In this document: piece after piece, positions 4,177 through 15,321 of the stretch | Layout of the letters: every line of letters starts with the position of its first letter | Position numbering within the stretch: the first letter of the stretch is position 1 | NCBI GenBank assembly: GCA_937139415.1 | Contig: CAKZPS010000011.1 | Span: 1 to 64,000 of the forward strand | Length of the DNA stretch: 64,000 nt | Direction of reading: 5' to 3' | From: an uncultured bacterium | GTDB lineage: Bacteria > Atribacterota > Atribacteria > Atribacterales > Caldatribacteriaceae | Program-made: the position numbers and the translations under genes | The notes under the pieces: model-generated | Databases searched by the model: none | Told to the model about the DNA's origin: nothing | Seen by the model: only the letters and a program-made list of their open reading frames with translations

Positions 4177-6510
4177 TTACCCAATATCTCCCAATTGCAA
4201 ATATCGCCCAAAACGCCTCTCGATTTCCTCAGCTAAAAGACGGTATTCTCCTCCTAATTGAGGATCGACTGCAAGAATTCGTTCTGCCTCTAAGTGGGCT
4301 TTTTCTAAAATAGACCAATCCTCCAATGGATCAGCCAGTCGAAATTCTGGAACACCGTGCTGCCTCACTCCATAGAACTCTCCCGGACCCCTCAGACGGA
4401 GATCTTCTTCGGCGATTTGAAAGCCATCGTCAGTGGTGGTCATGATCTCCATTCGCCGACGTACCTCCTCCCCGTTCAAAGAAGCGAGGAGTATACACAA
4501 CCCCTCAACAGAACCTCTGCCAATCCGACCGCGGAGCTGATGCAACTGAGCTAAACCAAATCGTTCTGCATTCTCAATAACCATCACACTCGCATTGGGA
4601 ACATCGATACCAACCTCGATGACTGAAGTAGCAACCAAAACCTGAATTTCTCCCCGTTCAAAGCGATGCATAATCATTTCCTTCTCTCGCGATGGGAGCT
4701 TCCCATGAATCATTTCTAACTGAAAATCTTTGAGCCATTGAGAACGCAAGAGTTCTAAAACGGCCTTAACATTACTAATTTCCTCCTCGCTCTCCTCGAT
4801 GGCCGGACACACCACGTACGCCTGTCTTCCCTCCTCTACTTTTTTCCGTAATCTCTGATAGGCCTTAAAACGTTCCCGGAGAGAAAAACAAAGGGTGGTC
4901 ACCGGCTTTCTTCCCGCCGGTTTTTCGTCCACTACAGAAACATCCAAATCACCATAAAGAGTCAAAGCAAGCGTCCTGGGGATCGGGGTTGCAGTCATCA
5001 CCAGAGTATGGGGAATAACTGCCTTTTTTTTCAATTTCGCCCGTTGAACAACTCCAAAGCGATGTTGTTCATCAACGATAACCAACCCTAAATTGGGAAA
5101 GGTTACCTTCTCCTCAATAAGGACGTGAGTCCCTATGACCAACTCTACTTCCTGTCGCTCTATCTTCTCAAGAAGCGTTGTCTTTTCCTTATTGATACCT
5201 CCCTTAAGAAGACCCACTCTTACTCCTAAGGAAGAGAGGACATCCCGAAAACGGAAATAGTGTTGCTCGGCTAAAATTTCGGTAGGAACCATGAAAGCAA
5301 CCTGTTTCCCCTCACCAATGACGTGTAAAGCACTTAAAATAGCTACCAAGGTTTTGCCTGAACCAACATCTCCTTGAATGAGTCTATTCATCACTCTACC
5401 ACTACTTAAATCCCGAACAATTTCTTGGTAGACCCTTGCTTGCGCCGAAGTCAATTGAAAGGGGAGGAGGTGGAGCAATTTCTCTACCAAAGGGGAATGC
5501 GGGTGACAAGGCTCAACGCAGACACGATCGAGGAGGCGGCGGCGTAACTTGAGGCTGAGAGCAAAGAGCAAGAACTCCTCAAAAATGAGCGCGATATGTG
5601 CTTGACTGCGACGCCTATTGAGCGCTTCTTCCCAAAAAGAGGGGCAGTGAAGTTGGTAAATGGCCTCTCGCTTAGGAGGAAAACCATGTCGTTCTCTCAC
5701 CGCTTCGGGGAGAATTTCCGTCACCGCGGGGAGAAAAGTATGAAGAGCAAAAAGAATGATCGAACGAAGTTTCTTGGGTTGCAAACCTTCGGTGAGAGAA
5801 TAAACAGGAATGATTGATCCTAAATCCGCTTGACCATTTTCCCTCGCTTGAAATTCAAAATTAGCAATTTCCCACCCTGAAGGAGACCTTTGGAAATTAC
5901 CCCAGACCATAACCGACATCCCCTTGGGAAGTACTTGCGCTAAATATCCACGATTAAAACACACTAAAAACACTCGACCGCTTTGGTCTTGCACGCCAAT
6001 TCTCAAGAGAGGACCACGCCTCGTATGCTTTCGTTCATGAGTTACCACAACTCCCTGAATAGTTTCTATGCCTTTACCCTCCAAACGGCTGATCGGCTTC
6101 ACTTCTCCCCGGTTTCTATAACAACGAGGGAAGAAATACAAGAGATCTTCCACGGTATAAATCCCCAACCGTTGTAATTTTTTCTCTAAAACCGGCCCAA
6201 CGCCCTTGACATATCGTATTGGCTGACCAAGGTCAGGCGAAGGAGAGGGAGGAAGTTTTTGAGCGGGAGGAGTAGGTCTTGCTCGGATAAACTCTTCAAG
6301 CTTCTTCAGGATTTCCCTTTTTCCTTGCCGTTGAAAAGTGGGGTATTGCTCAAGAAGGGAAAGAAACTCGGACAGATTCTCTCGATTTTCATGTTGAGCG
6401 AGCCACCCTGTTAAAAACTGAGCAAAGCCACCGATGACTGAAGTATTATCGAGTTTTTGTTTTTCCCGGTCAACGATTTTCAAAATGAGTTCTCGGCTTG
6501 TTCTGGTCAT
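4177..6510 (-). CDS. recG: ATP-dependent DNA helicase RecG
   Basis: RecG remodels stalled forks and Holliday junctions. The 777-residue protein has an N-terminal extension of about 90 residues, as in Thermotoga RecG, then a helix-hairpin and wedge/OB region (about 95-225) including VKGVGPVLEKKL. The helicase core has Walker A GDVGSGKT (380-387) and the DEQH box (480-483). Later come the TATPIPRT motif, a QLRGRIGRG motif VI and the RecG C-terminal DEEDLRLRGPGEF-type wing. It is the first gene of the recG-yceD operon and is divergent from rpmB. A TATAAC-like -10 reads toward it at about 6605, but its -35 is weak, so its promoter is uncertain. Confidence 0.96.
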   Translation of the reverse strand: MTRTSRELILKIVDREKQKLDNTSVIGGFAQFLTGWLAQHENRENLSEFLSLLEQYPTFQRQGKREILKKLEEFIRARPTPPAQKLPPSPSPDLGQPIRYVKGVGPVLEKKLQRLGIYTVEDLLYFFPRCYRNRGEVKPISRLEGKGIETIQGVVVTHERKHTRRGPLLRIGVQDQSGRVFLVCFNRGYLAQVLPKGMSVMVWGNFQRSPSGWEIANFEFQARENGQADLGSIIPVYSLTEGLQPKKLRSIILFALHTFLPAVTEILPEAVRERHGFPPKREAIYQLHCPSFWEEALNRRRSQAHIALIFEEFLLFALSLKLRRRLLDRVCVEPCHPHSPLVEKLLHLLPFQLTSAQARVYQEIVRDLSSGRVMNRLIQGDVGSGKTLVAILSALHVIGEGKQVAFMVPTEILAEQHYFRFRDVLSSLGVRVGLLKGGINKEKTTLLEKIERQEVELVIGTHVLIEEKVTFPNLGLVIVDEQHRFGVVQRAKLKKKAVIPHTLVMTATPIPRTLALTLYGDLDVSVVDEKPAGRKPVTTLCFSLRERFKAYQRLRKKVEEGRQAYVVCPAIEESEEEISNVKAVLELLRSQWLKDFQLEMIHGKLPSREKEMIMHRFERGEIQVLVATSVIEVGIDVPNASVMVIENAERFGLAQLHQLRGRIGRGSVEGLCILLASLNGEEVRRRMEIMTTTDDGFQIAEEDLRLRGPGEFYGVRQHGVPEFRLADPLEDWSILEKAHLEAERILAVDPQLGGEYRLLAEEIERRFGRYLQLGDIG

Positions 6511-7584: not shown

Positions 7585-8637
7585 CTACTCCAAAGTTTTC
7601 TCCCAATAATAGTAACCGTTGAGGAAGATCACCACTTTACCTTTCCCCTTGGTCACCGCAGAAAACTCTACCAAATCGCCCCCTTGATGGGTCTTCTCGT
7701 ATAAAACTCTTTCTCCCAATTCATCGTTAGCAACTACCTTCACTTCAATAGGAACTCGAGAGTCAGGGAGAGAGAAACGCAAACTCAATTCCTTTGCTCC
7801 AGAAAGGGTGGAGGCTTCATCGGTTTCTTGGGTTCCTCTACTTACTCTTAAGTTAACTTTTTTCCCTACCTCCACTTCCTCTCCCGCCAGAGGTTCTTGA
7901 TCGATCACAATGCCTGCTCTTCTTTGAGAAGTTTGCACTTCTTCTACATCTCCCACACTCAAACCCTCTTGAGCAAGAACGGCTTTCGCCTCATTCAGTC
8001 GTAATCCCACCAGATCGGGAACCACCACCGTTTGCTTCGCAGAAGTCAGACCTCCCTTACTTACGAGGAGACTCACCACCGCTCCTTGAGCAATCTTACT
8101 CTGGGGAGGAGGATTCTGGGAAATAACATATCCTTGAGGAACTCGCTCATGACTCGCTTCAACAACTCTCCCCAATTGGAATCCACTCGCCTGAAGAATT
8201 TGCTCCGCCTCTTCTAAGGTTTTTTCTCTCACATCAGGAACTACAACGATATTCGCAGAAGAACCTCCCTGAGTGGTAGCAAAACCCTCCCCACCGTTTA
8301 CCACTAACCACACTCGACTATTCTTCTTAACCTTGCTCCCGGGTGCTGGATCTTGCTCAATAACCGCATTCGGCGCAACTTCAGGATCATACTCGAGCTT
8401 TTTCACTTCCACCTGCAAACCCAAACGGGCTGAAGCGTTTACTGCTTCAATCAAACTTTGATGACGAAAGTCGGGGAGAGTAACAGTCCCCGCTTCCAAG
8501 TAAGCCTGGAAAAACACTAAGCTCAAATACCCACTCAATGCCAATCCCAGCGCAAACAGGAGAATATAGATAATCCCCCTGAACAGTAACGAAAGTCCTT
8601 TTTCTCGATTTTTGCGAATTTTTACTTTCTCTTCCAT
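7585..8637 (-). CDS. Membrane-anchored PASTA-repeat protein without kinase domain
   Basis: This 350-residue protein has a short basic cytoplasmic tail (1-18), one membrane helix (about 19-43), three PASTA repeats outside the cell (about 50-115, 130-194 and 204-267) and a beta-rich C-terminal domain (about 284-350). Each repeat carries the family pattern of a V-P-D/L-P-D start, an EA helix, and a Q-P-P/D-P turn with VS/VV strands. PASTA domains bind peptidoglycan fragments in PrkC-type Ser/Thr kinases and some penicillin-binding proteins. No kinase domain is present, although the gene sits between rsmB and rpe exactly where prkC lies in Bacillota. Its N-terminus overlaps the rsmB 3' end by 16 bases. 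It may sense or anchor to the cell wall; this is inference. Confidence 0.88.
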   Translation of the reverse strand: MEEKVKIRKNREKGLSLLFRGIIYILLFALGLALSGYLSLVFFQAYLEAGTVTLPDFRHQSLIEAVNASARLGLQVEVKKLEYDPEVAPNAVIEQDPAPGSKVKKNSRVWLVVNGGEGFATTQGGSSANIVVVPDVREKTLEEAEQILQASGFQLGRVVEASHERVPQGYVISQNPPPQSKIAQGAVVSLLVSKGGLTSAKQTVVVPDLVGLRLNEAKAVLAQEGLSVGDVEEVQTSQRRAGIVIDQEPLAGEEVEVGKKVNLRVSRGTQETDEASTLSGAKELSLRFSLPDSRVPIEVKVVANDELGERVLYEKTHQGGDLVEFSAVTKGKGKVVIFLNGYYYWEKTLE

Positions 8638-10639: not shown

Positions 10640-11575
10640 CTATTGGAACTGATCTCCCACCTTGATCTGATACCCACAACACAAGTCACGAAAAAGCATT
10701 GGAGAACGATTTTCCGGTTGCACAACGTACAACGCTACATAACCCTCTTGCGCCTTAACAATAATCCCCCTCTCTCTATCAATATTTACTATCGTGCCGG
10801 GGAGAAAATCGTTCCCTTCTCCCTGCACCACAAAAGCCTCAATGACTTTCAATCTCTTCCCCCGCCAAAAGGTATACGCTCCGGGAGAACGAGTAAAGGC
10901 CCGTATTCTATTCACGATCCTTTCCGCTTTCTCTCCCCAAGAAATCCTCGCTTCTTCCTTAGAGAGACACGGAGCGTAGGAAACTTCCCCTTCTTGAGGA
11001 CGGGGAACGAGGGTTCCTTTTCTCCAACCTATGAGCGTCTCTCCAAGAAGAGTTCCTCCCAAAGCACCCAACAACACTACCAAAGAAGAATAATTGTCCC
11101 GCTCTCCAACTTCTATCGGTTGCTGCGCCAAGATCGGGCCGGTATCGACACCCTCGTCCATGAGCATCACCGTAACACCCGTTTCGGCGTCTCCCTGAAG
11201 GAGCGTCCATCGTATGGGATCGGGACCACGATGACGAGGGAGGAGAGAAGCATGGACATTGATGCATCCCAAAGGAGGTAAGGTGAGAAGAGATCGTCTG
11301 AGAATCTGTCCGTAAGCAGCAACCACAATAGCTTCGGGAGAAAGAGCACGCAGAGTCTCTACAAACTCGGGATCATTCACCCGCACCGGCTTCAAAACGG
11401 TAAGGCCAAACTCTTGAGCCTTCATGGTAACCGGTGAGGGGGTGATTCTTTGCCCTCTTCCGGCTTTGGCATCAGCCTTACTCACCACGGCCTGAACGGT
11501 AATATCGTTTCGGCGCAGAATCTCTTCCAAAACCATGGCTCCAAACAAGGAGGTTCCCATGAAAACAATCTTCAC
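10640..11575 (-). CDS. fmt: Methionyl-tRNA formyltransferase
   Basis: Fmt formylates initiator Met-tRNA using 10-formyl-tetrahydrofolate. The 311-residue protein begins MKIVFMGTSLFGAMVLEEIL. It contains the folate/catalytic segment GCINVHASLLPRHRGPDPIRW (Asn, His, and later Asp in LMDEGVDTGPIL), then the C-terminal OB-fold tRNA domain. It directly follows def, so formylation and its removal from new proteins are encoded together. Confidence 0.97.
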   Translation of the reverse strand: MKIVFMGTSLFGAMVLEEILRRNDITVQAVVSKADAKAGRGQRITPSPVTMKAQEFGLTVLKPVRVNDPEFVETLRALSPEAIVVAAYGQILRRSLLTLPPLGCINVHASLLPRHRGPDPIRWTLLQGDAETGVTVMLMDEGVDTGPILAQQPIEVGERDNYSSLVVLLGALGGTLLGETLIGWRKGTLVPRPQEGEVSYAPCLSKEEARISWGEKAERIVNRIRAFTRSPGAYTFWRGKRLKVIEAFVVQGEGNDFLPGTIVNIDRERGIIVKAQEGYVALYVVQPENRSPMLFRDLCCGYQIKVGDQFQ

Positions 11576-11581
11576 CGTTCA

Positions 11582-12082
11582 TCACCATTGCGAAGCAGCT
11601 TTTTTTAACTTACCTCCTAAGAGCAATCGTCGTGAGGGGCTCAAACGATCCACAAAGAGAATGCCATCCAAATGATCGATCTCGTGTTGCAGAATCCGCG
11701 CCAAGAACCCTTGGGCTTCCATCGTCACCTTTTCTCCCTCTTCATTCATCCCCTTGACCAATACCTCCCGACTCCTTTCTACCTTCGCGTATATCTCAGG
11801 GATACTTAAACATCCCTCTTCCCCCAACTCCCTCTCTTCGCTCCGATACACAATTTCAGGGTTCAAAAGAACACCGTCTTTTTGGGTTTCAGGGTATACA
11901 AAGGTAATAATCCGTAAAAGCACCCCCACTTGATTCCCTGCCAAACCTACCCCCGAGGAAGCATGCATGGTTTCTTTCATATCCTTTACGAGGGTAAGAA
12001 CTGTTCCATTGATCTCCTCTATCTCCTGAGCCCGCTTTCTCAATACCTCACTTCCATATTTCTGAATCATCCGCGTAGCCAC
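11582..12082 (-). CDS. def: Peptide deformylase
   Basis: Def removes the N-formyl group from nascent proteins. All three motifs are visible in this 166-residue protein: GVGLAGNQVG (motif 1, with Gly for the usual second Ala), EEGCLSIP with the metal-binding Cys, and QHEIDHLDGILF with the two metal-binding His and the catalytic Glu. It lies between priA and fmt with seven bases to fmt. The motif 1 change is mild and not expected to abolish activity. Confidence 0.97.
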   Translation of the reverse strand: MATRMIQKYGSEVLRKRAQEIEEINGTVLTLVKDMKETMHASSGVGLAGNQVGVLLRIITFVYPETQKDGVLLNPEIVYRSEERELGEEGCLSIPEIYAKVERSREVLVKGMNEEGEKVTMEAQGFLARILQHEIDHLDGILFVDRLSPSRRLLLGGKLKKAASQW

Positions 12083-12097
12083 TTTCTCACCTCTTCA

Positions 12098-14107
12098 TTA
12101 CGCATCAACCTCGATATCCCAGGTAATGCCTTCTCTACGACGGTAAGGCAAAAAGGAAACAACCGTTTCAAAAACGGCCTCCAAATCTTGTTCGGGAAAA
12201 CACACACCCAGTTCTTCTTTCCACCGACCCCTTTTCCTAAAGCCGGACCCCGGAAAAGGTCCTATTACCGTCATGCCCTTTTTTTCCAATTCTTCCTGTA
12301 GGGATTTTAGAACCAAAAGACAGGCGTCTTTATTCCGACTCTCTCCTATTATACGCAAAAGATAACCAAAGGGGGGATAACCCAATACTCGCCTCTTTTC
12401 TAAACCCTCACTATAAAACTCTCTCCAAGATTTCAAGAACTGCCCCATTCTCGTTATTGCCTCTTTCGATCCCTGGACAAATACCTGGGTATTGAGAGCA
12501 ACATCAACACCTAAAAGCTGTAGTGCCTTTCCCCACTTCACGTAGAATTCCTCGCGAGCATTGAAATCACTGAGATACAACCAGCTTTCCAGCGAAACGA
12601 CTACAAGAAGCGCACTCCTCCTCAAAAGCTCTTCCCGAAGAATCGCCGAAGTACCGACGACGATGTAAGGCGTTTTCGATTCAAGAAGCTCTTGCCCCTC
12701 TACAAACATTTCTGAATCGATGCGGAGCGTGTGATGCTTGGGGAAGATGGTTTGTATCTCTGCGTGCACCTTCTCTAATCCCTCCCCCCAATTCTCCCAA
12801 AGAGTACCTCTACAAATCGGACAAGCATCGGCAGGTTCAACTTTCCTCCCACATCGAGGACACCACAAAAATTTGCTGTCCAGGTGGTAACGGAGCGCAA
12901 CCTCACAATCCGGGCACATATAGTAAAAGCCACACTCACCACATCCCAAAGCAGAAGCGTAGCCCATCTTCTGTACCCAAAGGAGTACCGACGCACCCTG
13001 CGCAGTGACGCGAGCAATTTCCTCTCGTATAGGGGGAGCAAGAACCAATCTCTGCTTCCTTGACTCATAGGTTATGGTCTTCACCGTTTTTCTCTTGGGT
13101 AAATTGTTCTCCGGGAAATCTCTCTCTTCAAATTCTCCTTCACGGAGAAAATGAGCAATCCCGAGCGGAGGGACAATACCCACTACATGAAGTTCTCCTC
13201 CCTTAATTCTGAGCTTTTCATAGAGAACCCGTAGAGCGCTGTAGCGAGGAATCTGATCAGAAAAATGACCTTTTTCTTCCGGATCAAAAATCACGTGGTA
13301 ATACAAGTCAAAGGCCGGCAAAAAGAGAGCCAGTCGTGTCCCGAGAATAAGGTCATACTCACCTTCTTCCACCAACCGAAAGGCGAGGAGCCTCTTTTTT
13401 GCAGAAAGGCGGCTATCATACTTTATAACCCGAAGCAAAGGACATCGTTTTCGAATGAAAGCCTCAAAAGAATCTAAACTATGGAAATCGGGGAAAACGA
13501 GGAGAATCTTTCGTCTCTCTCTCTGAGCGTTTTCTATCATTTCCAGGCACCACTGCCTTCGGCTCTCGGTGAAGAGAATACGCCACCAGAAAAATCGCTT
13601 CTCCGGGAAAGAAGACTCTTGGGGAAATGTGCGCTCTCTCTCTAAACGGACAAGCCCTTCTTTCAGGAGTTTCTGCCAAGTACGAGAAGATACACGAAAG
13701 GTTTCCCGAAAAATGAAGAGATTCCGACCACCGGAGGGAATATCCCACCTTGATTCACCATCTTGCGTAAAAACTCTTTGCTCCAAAAATTTCCATTGGG
13801 ACGGGAGACAAGGAGGGAAGAAAAGCTGAGCAATTTCGCCCAAAGGGAGGAAATATATTTTAGAAAGCCTTTTTGCCCAGTCCATTTGCTTCTCTCCCCA
13901 AGGAGAAACGGGAACAATCCGCAGGATCGGCTTTAGATTTTCTTCGTTCCTTACTTGAAGCGCGCAAACCAATCCCATGAGGAGACGCTGGTGAAACTCG
14001 ACTTCGACAATGCTTCCAACCCGCACGGTATCATCAAGAGGGGAAGGAAGGAAGTAGGAGAATTCCTGAAAAACTGGAACAGGGAGTGCCAGTGAAGCTA
14101 CTTTCAT
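12098..14107 (-). CDS. priA: PriA-like primosomal protein with degenerate helicase motifs
   Basis: The protein aligns with PriA from end to end: an N-terminal 3'-DNA-end-binding domain (about 1-100), two helicase lobes, eight zinc cysteines between the lobes (C389, C392, C398, C401, C416, C419, C429, C432) and the C-terminal domain ending GITWDIEVD. The ATPase motifs are gone. The Walker A region reads RILFTESRRQW (176-186) instead of GxTGSGKT, DEEH is DPEE (275-278), SATP is IVPP (311-314), and the QVAGRAGR motif VI is absent. At 669 residues it is somewhat short. Actinobacterial PriA is also helicase-dead, so a scaffold role in replication restart is plausible. It sits in the normal coaBC-priA-def-fmt order, with a 4-base overlap with coaBC. 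Confidence 0.9.
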   Translation of the reverse strand: MKVASLALPVPVFQEFSYFLPSPLDDTVRVGSIVEVEFHQRLLMGLVCALQVRNEENLKPILRIVPVSPWGEKQMDWAKRLSKIYFLPLGEIAQLFFPPCLPSQWKFLEQRVFTQDGESRWDIPSGGRNLFIFRETFRVSSRTWQKLLKEGLVRLERERTFPQESSFPEKRFFWWRILFTESRRQWCLEMIENAQRERRKILLVFPDFHSLDSFEAFIRKRCPLLRVIKYDSRLSAKKRLLAFRLVEEGEYDLILGTRLALFLPAFDLYYHVIFDPEEKGHFSDQIPRYSALRVLYEKLRIKGGELHVVGIVPPLGIAHFLREGEFEERDFPENNLPKRKTVKTITYESRKQRLVLAPPIREEIARVTAQGASVLLWVQKMGYASALGCGECGFYYMCPDCEVALRYHLDSKFLWCPRCGRKVEPADACPICRGTLWENWGEGLEKVHAEIQTIFPKHHTLRIDSEMFVEGQELLESKTPYIVVGTSAILREELLRRSALLVVVSLESWLYLSDFNAREEFYVKWGKALQLLGVDVALNTQVFVQGSKEAITRMGQFLKSWREFYSEGLEKRRVLGYPPFGYLLRIIGESRNKDACLLVLKSLQEELEKKGMTVIGPFPGSGFRKRGRWKEELGVCFPEQDLEAVFETVVSFLPYRRREGITWDIEVDA

Positions 14108-15321
14108 TCGAAAAAAGTGCGCACGAGGTGTACCAGAATTTCCTCAGCAAGATCTCGTTTATCTAAGAGCGGGAATTCGATTTCGTTTCCTTTTCGATCC
14201 ACAACCCATGCCTGACTGGTAGGAGTTTCAAAACCACTTTCCCCTTTGGTAATACGATTCGCTACGATCATATCTAAGTTCTTATTCTTGAGTTTCCTCC
14301 TCGCTTCATTGAGGAGATCCTCGGTCTCGGCACAGAAACCAACCACTATCTTTTCCCCCTTATGAGGGGTAATGCTCGAAAGCAAATCAGGAGCAGGCAC
14401 CAAAGAGAGAGAAAAAGACTCTCTTCCCTCCTTCTTTATTTTCGAAGGAAAAGGAGTAGGACACTGGAAATCGGAAACCGCCGCGTTCATGAGAAGAATA
14501 TCACAAGAGGGAAATGCTCGCTTTAGTGCTTCTTGCATCTCGGAAACTGTTTCTACCCGTTCGACAGCAATGCCAGAGGGAAAACGCACCGAGGAAGAAG
14601 CCATAATCACTTTCACTTCTCCTCCCAAAGCCCGGGCCATACTTGCTAAGGCGCACCCCATAAGCCCACTACTCGGATTAGAAATAAAGCGTACTGCGTC
14701 TAACCACTCTCGAGTGGCTCCGGCGGTGACGAGCACTCTCTTCCTGCAGAGCTTTTTGGGCACATAGAGGCGATAGAAGATTTCTTCTACCAAATCTTCG
14801 ACTTCTTTCAATCTCCCCGTGCCCACCTCTCCACAAGCCAATATTCCTGAATCGGGAGGAATAACCTGCATCCCCTTCTCCTCGATTCGCTTGATATTCT
14901 CCTGTACTATTGGATTCCTCCACATATCCACATTCATCGCTGGGGCAACAACCACTTGGCGGGGAGCAACGAGAACCAACGTACTCAAGAGATCATCAGC
15001 TATACCGTTAGCAACCTTCCCAACGATGTTGGCCGTGGCGGGAACAATAACAATACATTGATTTTCCCGTGCTAACGAGATGTGGACAATGTTCCCCTCT
15101 CCTTCAAAAAGGTCATCATACACTCTCCTCCCTGTGATGGCTTCGAAGGTACTCTTCCCCACCAGTTTCTGGGCGTGTTGGGTCATGCAAACAGTAACTA
15201 TGGCTCCCGCCTTGACCAAATAACTGGCCAAACTTACCGCTTTGAAAGCAGCAATTCCTCCGGTAACACCTAAAAGGATTTTCTTGTCTTTCCAAAAAGA
15301 AAGAGGGTGATAGACGATCAT
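14104..15321 (-). CDS. coaBC: Bifunctional phosphopantothenoylcysteine decarboxylase / phosphopantothenate-cysteine ligase
   Basis: CoaBC carries out two consecutive steps of CoA synthesis. The N-terminal flavoprotein domain (to about residue 190) shows GVTGGIAAFK, a PATANIVGKVANGIADDLLS stretch, APAMNVDMW and the catalytic LACGEVGTGRL. The C-terminal CTP-using ligase domain has VTAGATREWLDAVRFISNPSSGLMG, NAAVSDF and a KIKKE run. The start at 15321 overlaps the rpoZ stop by four bases. CoaD, for a later step, is encoded in the next operon at 3111. Confidence 0.96.
   Translation of the reverse strand: MIVYHPLSFWKDKKILLGVTGGIAAFKAVSLASYLVKAGAIVTVCMTQHAQKLVGKSTFEAITGRRVYDDLFEGEGNIVHISLARENQCIVIVPATANIVGKVANGIADDLLSTLVLVAPRQVVVAPAMNVDMWRNPIVQENIKRIEEKGMQVIPPDSGILACGEVGTGRLKEVEDLVEEIFYRLYVPKKLCRKRVLVTAGATREWLDAVRFISNPSSGLMGCALASMARALGGEVKVIMASSSVRFPSGIAVERVETVSEMQEALKRAFPSCDILLMNAAVSDFQCPTPFPSKIKKEGRESFSLSLVPAPDLLSSITPHKGEKIVVGFCAETEDLLNEARRKLKNKNLDMIVANRITKGESGFETPTSQAWVVDRKGNEIEFPLLDKRDLAEEILVHLVRTFFE

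Follow-up and report, generated by a model that had tools for sequence, protein, structure and literature searches.

Locus and domain organization of PriA

The window, that is, the whole stretch of 64,000 nucleotides that was analysed, comes from an uncultured bacterium of the Caldatribacteriaceae, which we take to be the family of Candidatus Caldatribacterium (OP9). The following genes and domains, all on the minus strand, were assigned at and around priA.

12098..14107 (-): priA, encoding a PriA of 669 amino acids without ATPase motifs (open reading frame, PriA family models, AlphaFold model and PDB matches)
13814..14107 (-): 3'-end DNA-binding domain, residues 1-98 (Pfam PF17764, 6.4e-14, above cut-off; dN/dS 0.14 within the order)
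13073..13591 (-): motor lobe 1, residues 173-345 (from the alignment, with approximate lobe boundaries; dN/dS 0.15), with Walker A replaced by TESRR, DEEH by FDPE and SATP by GIVP
12800..12952 (-): cysteine-rich region, residues 386-436 (eight zinc cysteines, C389, C392, C398, C401, C416, C419, C429 and C432)
12422..12799 (-): remainder of motor lobe 2, residues 437-562 (motif V altered yet conserved, VGTS...E; motif VI arginines gone; dN/dS 0.11)
12101..12421 (-): C-terminal domain, residues 563-669 (Pfam PF18074, 1.4e-6)
14104..15321 (-): coaBC (dfp), upstream of priA in the conserved order (Pfam DFP/Flavoprotein; order kept across the phylum)
10640..12082 (-): fmt and def, the next genes after priA in the conserved order (Pfam; order likewise kept)
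4177..6510 (-): recG, with Walker A (GSGKT), DEQH and GRIGR all intact

The features of the PriA family present in the protein were the 3'-end-binding domain, the eight-cysteine zinc region, the C-terminal domain, and the fold of the whole protein. Retention of the 3'-end-binding domain, the eight zinc cysteines and the C-terminus, as first proposed from the sequence, was borne out by Pfam (PF17764 and PF18074) and by alignment. The PriA zinc ribbon match of Pfam fell just under the cut-off, and the eight cysteines were invariant in alignments A1 and A2 and kept in E. coli and in all Atribacterota checked. Residues 99-172, the winged-helix region, had no Pfam match and consisted of helices and short strands in the AlphaFold model. 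This model, computed from the window protein and 15 natural relatives, had a pLDDT of 85.8 and a pTM of 0.88, and its best PDB matches in Foldseek were all PriA (TM 0.74, E 4e-42). The NCBIfam PriA models covered most of the protein with E-values down to 3e-52, all under their cut-offs, and NF011453 spanned it nearly end to end (residues 15-626). The TIGR00595 score was 168.7 bits against the curated cut-off of 230 bits, a shortfall that accompanied the loss of the motor motifs described below.

The gene order YicC-Gmk-CoaBC-PriA-Def-Fmt-(zinc peptidase)-RsmB-PASTA protein was kept across the order of the window, and it was nearly identical in the one locus of the JS1-like class that was checked (L057). 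By this gene order, the window gene is the orthologous PriA of Atribacterota. The RecG that had been noted near priA was indeed encoded there and intact. Beside rsmB, at 7585-8637 (-), lies an open reading frame for a membrane protein that carries three PASTA domains but lacks a kinase domain, and its position was also conserved across the order.

Loss of the ATPase motifs

The PriA proteins of E. coli and Klebsiella (PDB 6dgd, 4nl4, 8fak) shared with the window PriA the domain order, the fold (TM 0.74), the zinc cysteines, the 3'-end-binding domain and the C-terminal domain, whereas ATPase motifs I, II, III and VI were absent from the window PriA. In the full-length alignment with PriA of E. 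coli K-12 (21% identity, BLASTP), GSGKT corresponded to TESRR, DEEH to FDPE, SATP to GIVP, and GRAGR to LLGVD. All four elements of the signature of an active SF2 motor (Walker A GxGKT, DEEH, SAT, and motif VI GRxGR) were thus replaced. In 48/48 canonical PriAs of the same alignment, the P-loop had its G and K and motif VI its two arginines, and the P-loop column contained R or S in 20/20 members of the order counted, being the least conserved of the motifs. A shifted yet intact P-loop was also looked for, and neither G.GK[ST] nor a looser pattern occurred in any frame of the priA coding strand.

Motifs IV and V persisted in altered but strongly conserved form (WVQK.GY and VGTS...E). The original prediction that every helicase motif had been lost was therefore correct for the ATP-handling motifs I, II, III and VI only, since motifs IV and V survived. 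Within the order, the entropy was 0.81 bits at motif II, 0.53 at motif IV and 0.72 at motif V, against a protein mean of 1.68, while it was not low at Walker A (1.99 bits) or motif VI (1.67). Conservation above the mean at motifs II, IV and V but not at Walker A indicated that the scaffold was held and ATP handling was not. No second PriA was present in the window genome (2.3 Mb, 96% complete), where the other matches to the PriA models were RecG, Mfd and UvrB fragments; the protein, ATPase-dead as judged by its sequence, is the sole PriA, in agreement with the original prediction. The window PriA is accordingly predicted to lack ATPase activity. Residues of the 3'-end pocket (D17) and the SSB pocket varied among canonical PriAs or mismatched the E. 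coli numbering, so that no claim was drawn from them.

The motorless state and its stepwise decay in Atribacterota

The window PriA had at first appeared to be the oddity of one anaerobe, but our results showed that the state is phylum-wide in Atribacterota and decayed in steps. Among the 50 Atribacterota genomes examined, 45 had an alignable PriA. Motif VI GR.GR was found in 0/45 of these proteins and the P-loop GK[ST] in 0/41 of those spanning the region, the other four ending at contig ends. Because the loss was seen in 45 genomes, it was due neither to chance nor to sequencing faults. The JS1-like families (f5, f7) retained the aromatic-rich loop LYKEER.PRY.AREVA, an SxTPS-like motif III (SETPS) and the GTQ of motif V (GTQM). 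In the window's order (f1-f4), where PriA identity between families was 35-55%, these remnants of the aromatic loop, motif III and GTQ were gone, and the sequence FDPEE.GH.SD..P.Y stood at motif II instead, with D275, P276, G280 and P287 invariant in both alignments of the order (13 and 16 rows). Atribacterota formed a single clade in the RpoB tree (SH-aLRT 99). The simplest history would be one loss on or before the Atribacterota stem, followed by more decay in the window's order, and the loss of the motor probably predates the radiation of the phylum.

Selection on the protein was evaluated by pairwise dN/dS, which was mostly 0.1-0.2 among close relatives with a maximum of 0.30. By domain within the order, the values were 0.14 for the 3'-end-binding domain, 0.15 for lobe 1, 0.11-0.20 for lobe 2, 0.11 for the zinc region, and 0.19 for the C-terminus. 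The motorless PriA thus persists under purifying selection, motor lobes included, and the PriA of Atribacterota is a maintained scaffold and not debris.

When genome contigs were scanned with the alignment of the window-order PriAs, the named matches were Atribacterota, save one weak match; the scan with the window PriA alone as the query gave no match. A single gammaproteobacterial contig (L159, uncultured Granulosicoccaceae, CALFBL010000390.1) fitted the peptide patterns of Atribacterota PriA, with weak tblastn support.

Comparison with other PriA proteins lacking the motor

ATPase-dead PriA had been expected to have its known counterpart in Actinobacteria. Two proteins of the PRK14873 group (G156/L064 and G286/L065), which we assign to Actinobacteria on the assumption that this group is actinobacterial, resembled the window PriA in that the P-loop, DEEH, SATP and motif VI were all replaced in the alignment, and differed from it in the replacement sequences. 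The expectation therefore held as far as the missing motifs are concerned. Our literature search found no paper testing a PriA of the actinobacterial type, and the assayed precedent comes from Deinococcus-Thermus, for which the PriA pseudohelicase as a kind is already published (PMC4504706).

The PriA of Deinococcus radiodurans, like that of the window, has lost Walker A and Walker B and kept the 3'-end-binding domain, the cysteine-rich region and the C-terminus (PMC4504706). In this one assayed case, neither ATPase nor unwinding activity could be measured, single-stranded DNA and forks were bound at a level close to that of active PriAs, and there was an interaction with DnaB; according to the same paper, primosomes are still assembled by an E. 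coli PriA that is ATPase-dead (PMC4504706). The two proteins differ in the extent of the loss: the P-loop lysine of D. radiodurans PriA is changed to arginine within a recognisable GRT, whereas in the window PriA the replacement extends over the entire P-loop, DEEH, SATP and motif VI.

Proposed role in replication restart

The window genome encodes DnaB, and it encodes DciA in a dnaA-dnaN-recF-dciA cluster. No clear candidate for a loader of the DnaC/DnaI type was found in this genome, in which the best IstB match overlapped DnaA. The precedent of D. radiodurans PriA, the presence of DnaB and DciA, and the lack of a clear DnaC/DnaI-type loader make a platform role the most likely one. We consider, with a probability of about 0.74, that the window PriA is a pseudohelicase that recognises forks and serves as a platform for the reloading of DnaB without unwinding; the structural restart role suggested in the original prediction is thus the best reading. 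The two RecA-like lobes would stay as a folded scaffold from which the site of ATP binding and hydrolysis has gone. Restored or abandoned forks would be recognised via the 3'-end-binding domain and the lobes, and PriA would then be the platform at which DnaB lands again with the help of the DciA loader. The lagging-strand arm would either not have to be opened or be opened by another helicase. Fork binding and DnaB recruitment are ascribed to Atribacterota PriA by analogy, and its DNA binding may differ from that of the Deinococcus protein, because the elements that contact DNA in PriA (motifs III and V and the aromatic-rich loop) have changed in the window's order.

DciA itself was divergent in Atribacterales, with matches of 1.6e-6 in the window genome (G000:C53:15307-15558) and of 5e-4, below the cut-off, in G017 (G017:C1:836578-836829), while the matches in JS1-like relatives ranged from 1e-16 to 5e-24. 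This divergence of DciA in the window's order paralleled that of PriA, and co-evolution of the two is possible. As a partner specific to the loss, neither DciA nor PcrA/UvrD qualified, since the presence of neither separated genomes with a motorless PriA from those with a canonical PriA.

It is unlikely that PriA was repurposed after the loss of the ATPase, its motif II surface having given it a new activity or partner particular to the lineage, so that it would now be more than a restart platform. The new conserved sequence at motif II and the aromatic loop in the window's order, with its four invariant residues, and the strong hold on motifs IV and V are consistent with such a change, but the JS1-like class has an older version of the motif II stretch, the gene order and the zinc domain are unchanged, and the conserved loop could just maintain the lobe fold or a DNA contact. 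Slightly less probable is a division of labour in which PriA only flags the fork, and a second enzyme, either a 3'-5' helicase of the PcrA/UvrD type or RecG, is recruited by it to unwind in trans. Although a PcrA-family helicase (G000:C19, 1e-152) and an intact RecG are encoded, PcrA-type helicases also occur in nearly all genomes with a canonical PriA, some Atribacterota (G025, G026) had no PcrA/UvrD match, and no physical link was seen between PriA and the helicases. The PcrA-type helicase or RecG could thus provide unwinding, and the reliance on another helicase raised in the original prediction is possible, but as such enzymes accompany working PriAs too, nothing ties them to the loss of the motor.

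The high divergence between families of the order might suggest a decaying gene without function, which we regard as very improbable because priA is intact in more than 40 genomes, dN/dS is mostly 0.1-0.2 even in the motor lobes, the zinc cysteines are invariant, and the locus is fixed. It is just as improbable that the protein is a normal PriA helicase whose nucleotide site is shifted or cryptic: some carboxylates are still near motif II, but the coding strand contains no P-loop pattern, R or S occupies the P-loop column throughout the order members counted, and the motif VI arginines are gone.

Motorless PriA in other bacteria

Our survey covered 160 further bacterial families with one genome each, and PriA was assessable in 149 of them. 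The P-loop and motif VI were both missing by alignment in 18 (about 12%), which is a lower bound since the other 131 were mostly scored as canonical from the PriA-model score and the start position, without individual alignment. Placing the motorless and canonical states on the RpoB tree took 12 changes, of which well-supported branches forced at least 6, and clear motorless/canonical sister pairs were observed (G114/G249, G127/G160, G236/G148, and G121 with G116 and G105). These sister pairs and forced changes indicated that the loss of the PriA helicase is recurrent across bacteria. The independent loss put forward in the original prediction is supported to this extent. The motorless lineages nearest to Atribacterota were G077, G219, G279, G127 and G228/G088. 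The loss in Atribacterota may or may not be distinct from the losses in all other motorless lineages: the actinobacterial type stood apart from Atribacterota in the free PriA and RpoB trees, not decisively, and the AU test did not reject the two as one clade (p = 0.57 for PriA and 0.49 for RpoB).

According to the 2015 paper, the motifs of PriA are well preserved beyond Deinococcus-Thermus (PMC4504706), against which a whole phylum and about 12% of the sampled families with an assessable PriA now stand without them. No paper naming both PriA and Atribacter* was found in our literature search, and three points appear to be new: the state is fixed throughout Atribacterota, it decayed in steps with the motif II stretch being rebuilt, and it is frequent among bacteria. 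It seems that in many bacteria broken replication forks are restarted with a PriA that has no motor, and the repeated losses in nature make the need for the PriA motor in restart directly testable. Caution is advisable in annotating motif-less PriAs as helicases. More tentatively, and with some doubt on our part, motorless PriA may be a stable and repeatedly evolved restart state, the motor having disappeared many times, and from whole phyla, since a platform that binds forks, together with DciA-type loading of DnaB, is sufficient, and the motif II site of Atribacterota having been rebuilt as a new conserved contact surface.

A possible intermediate was seen in G228 (L087/L110) and its sister G088 (L200), whose PriAs retained the P-loop (PPRSGKT and PPRTGKT) while motif II DEEH and motif VI were gone; these proteins possibly bind ATP and do not hydrolyse it. 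In nine genomes of other families (G066, G081, G082, G084, G108, G126, G138, G161 and G241), no PriA match was found besides RecG/Mfd/UvrB-like fragments, and PriA may be absent from them, as some are more than 95% complete. Extremely diverged PriA-like proteins, recognisable mostly near the zinc region and motif V, were encoded at L102 (G086), L103 (G131) and L109 (G208).
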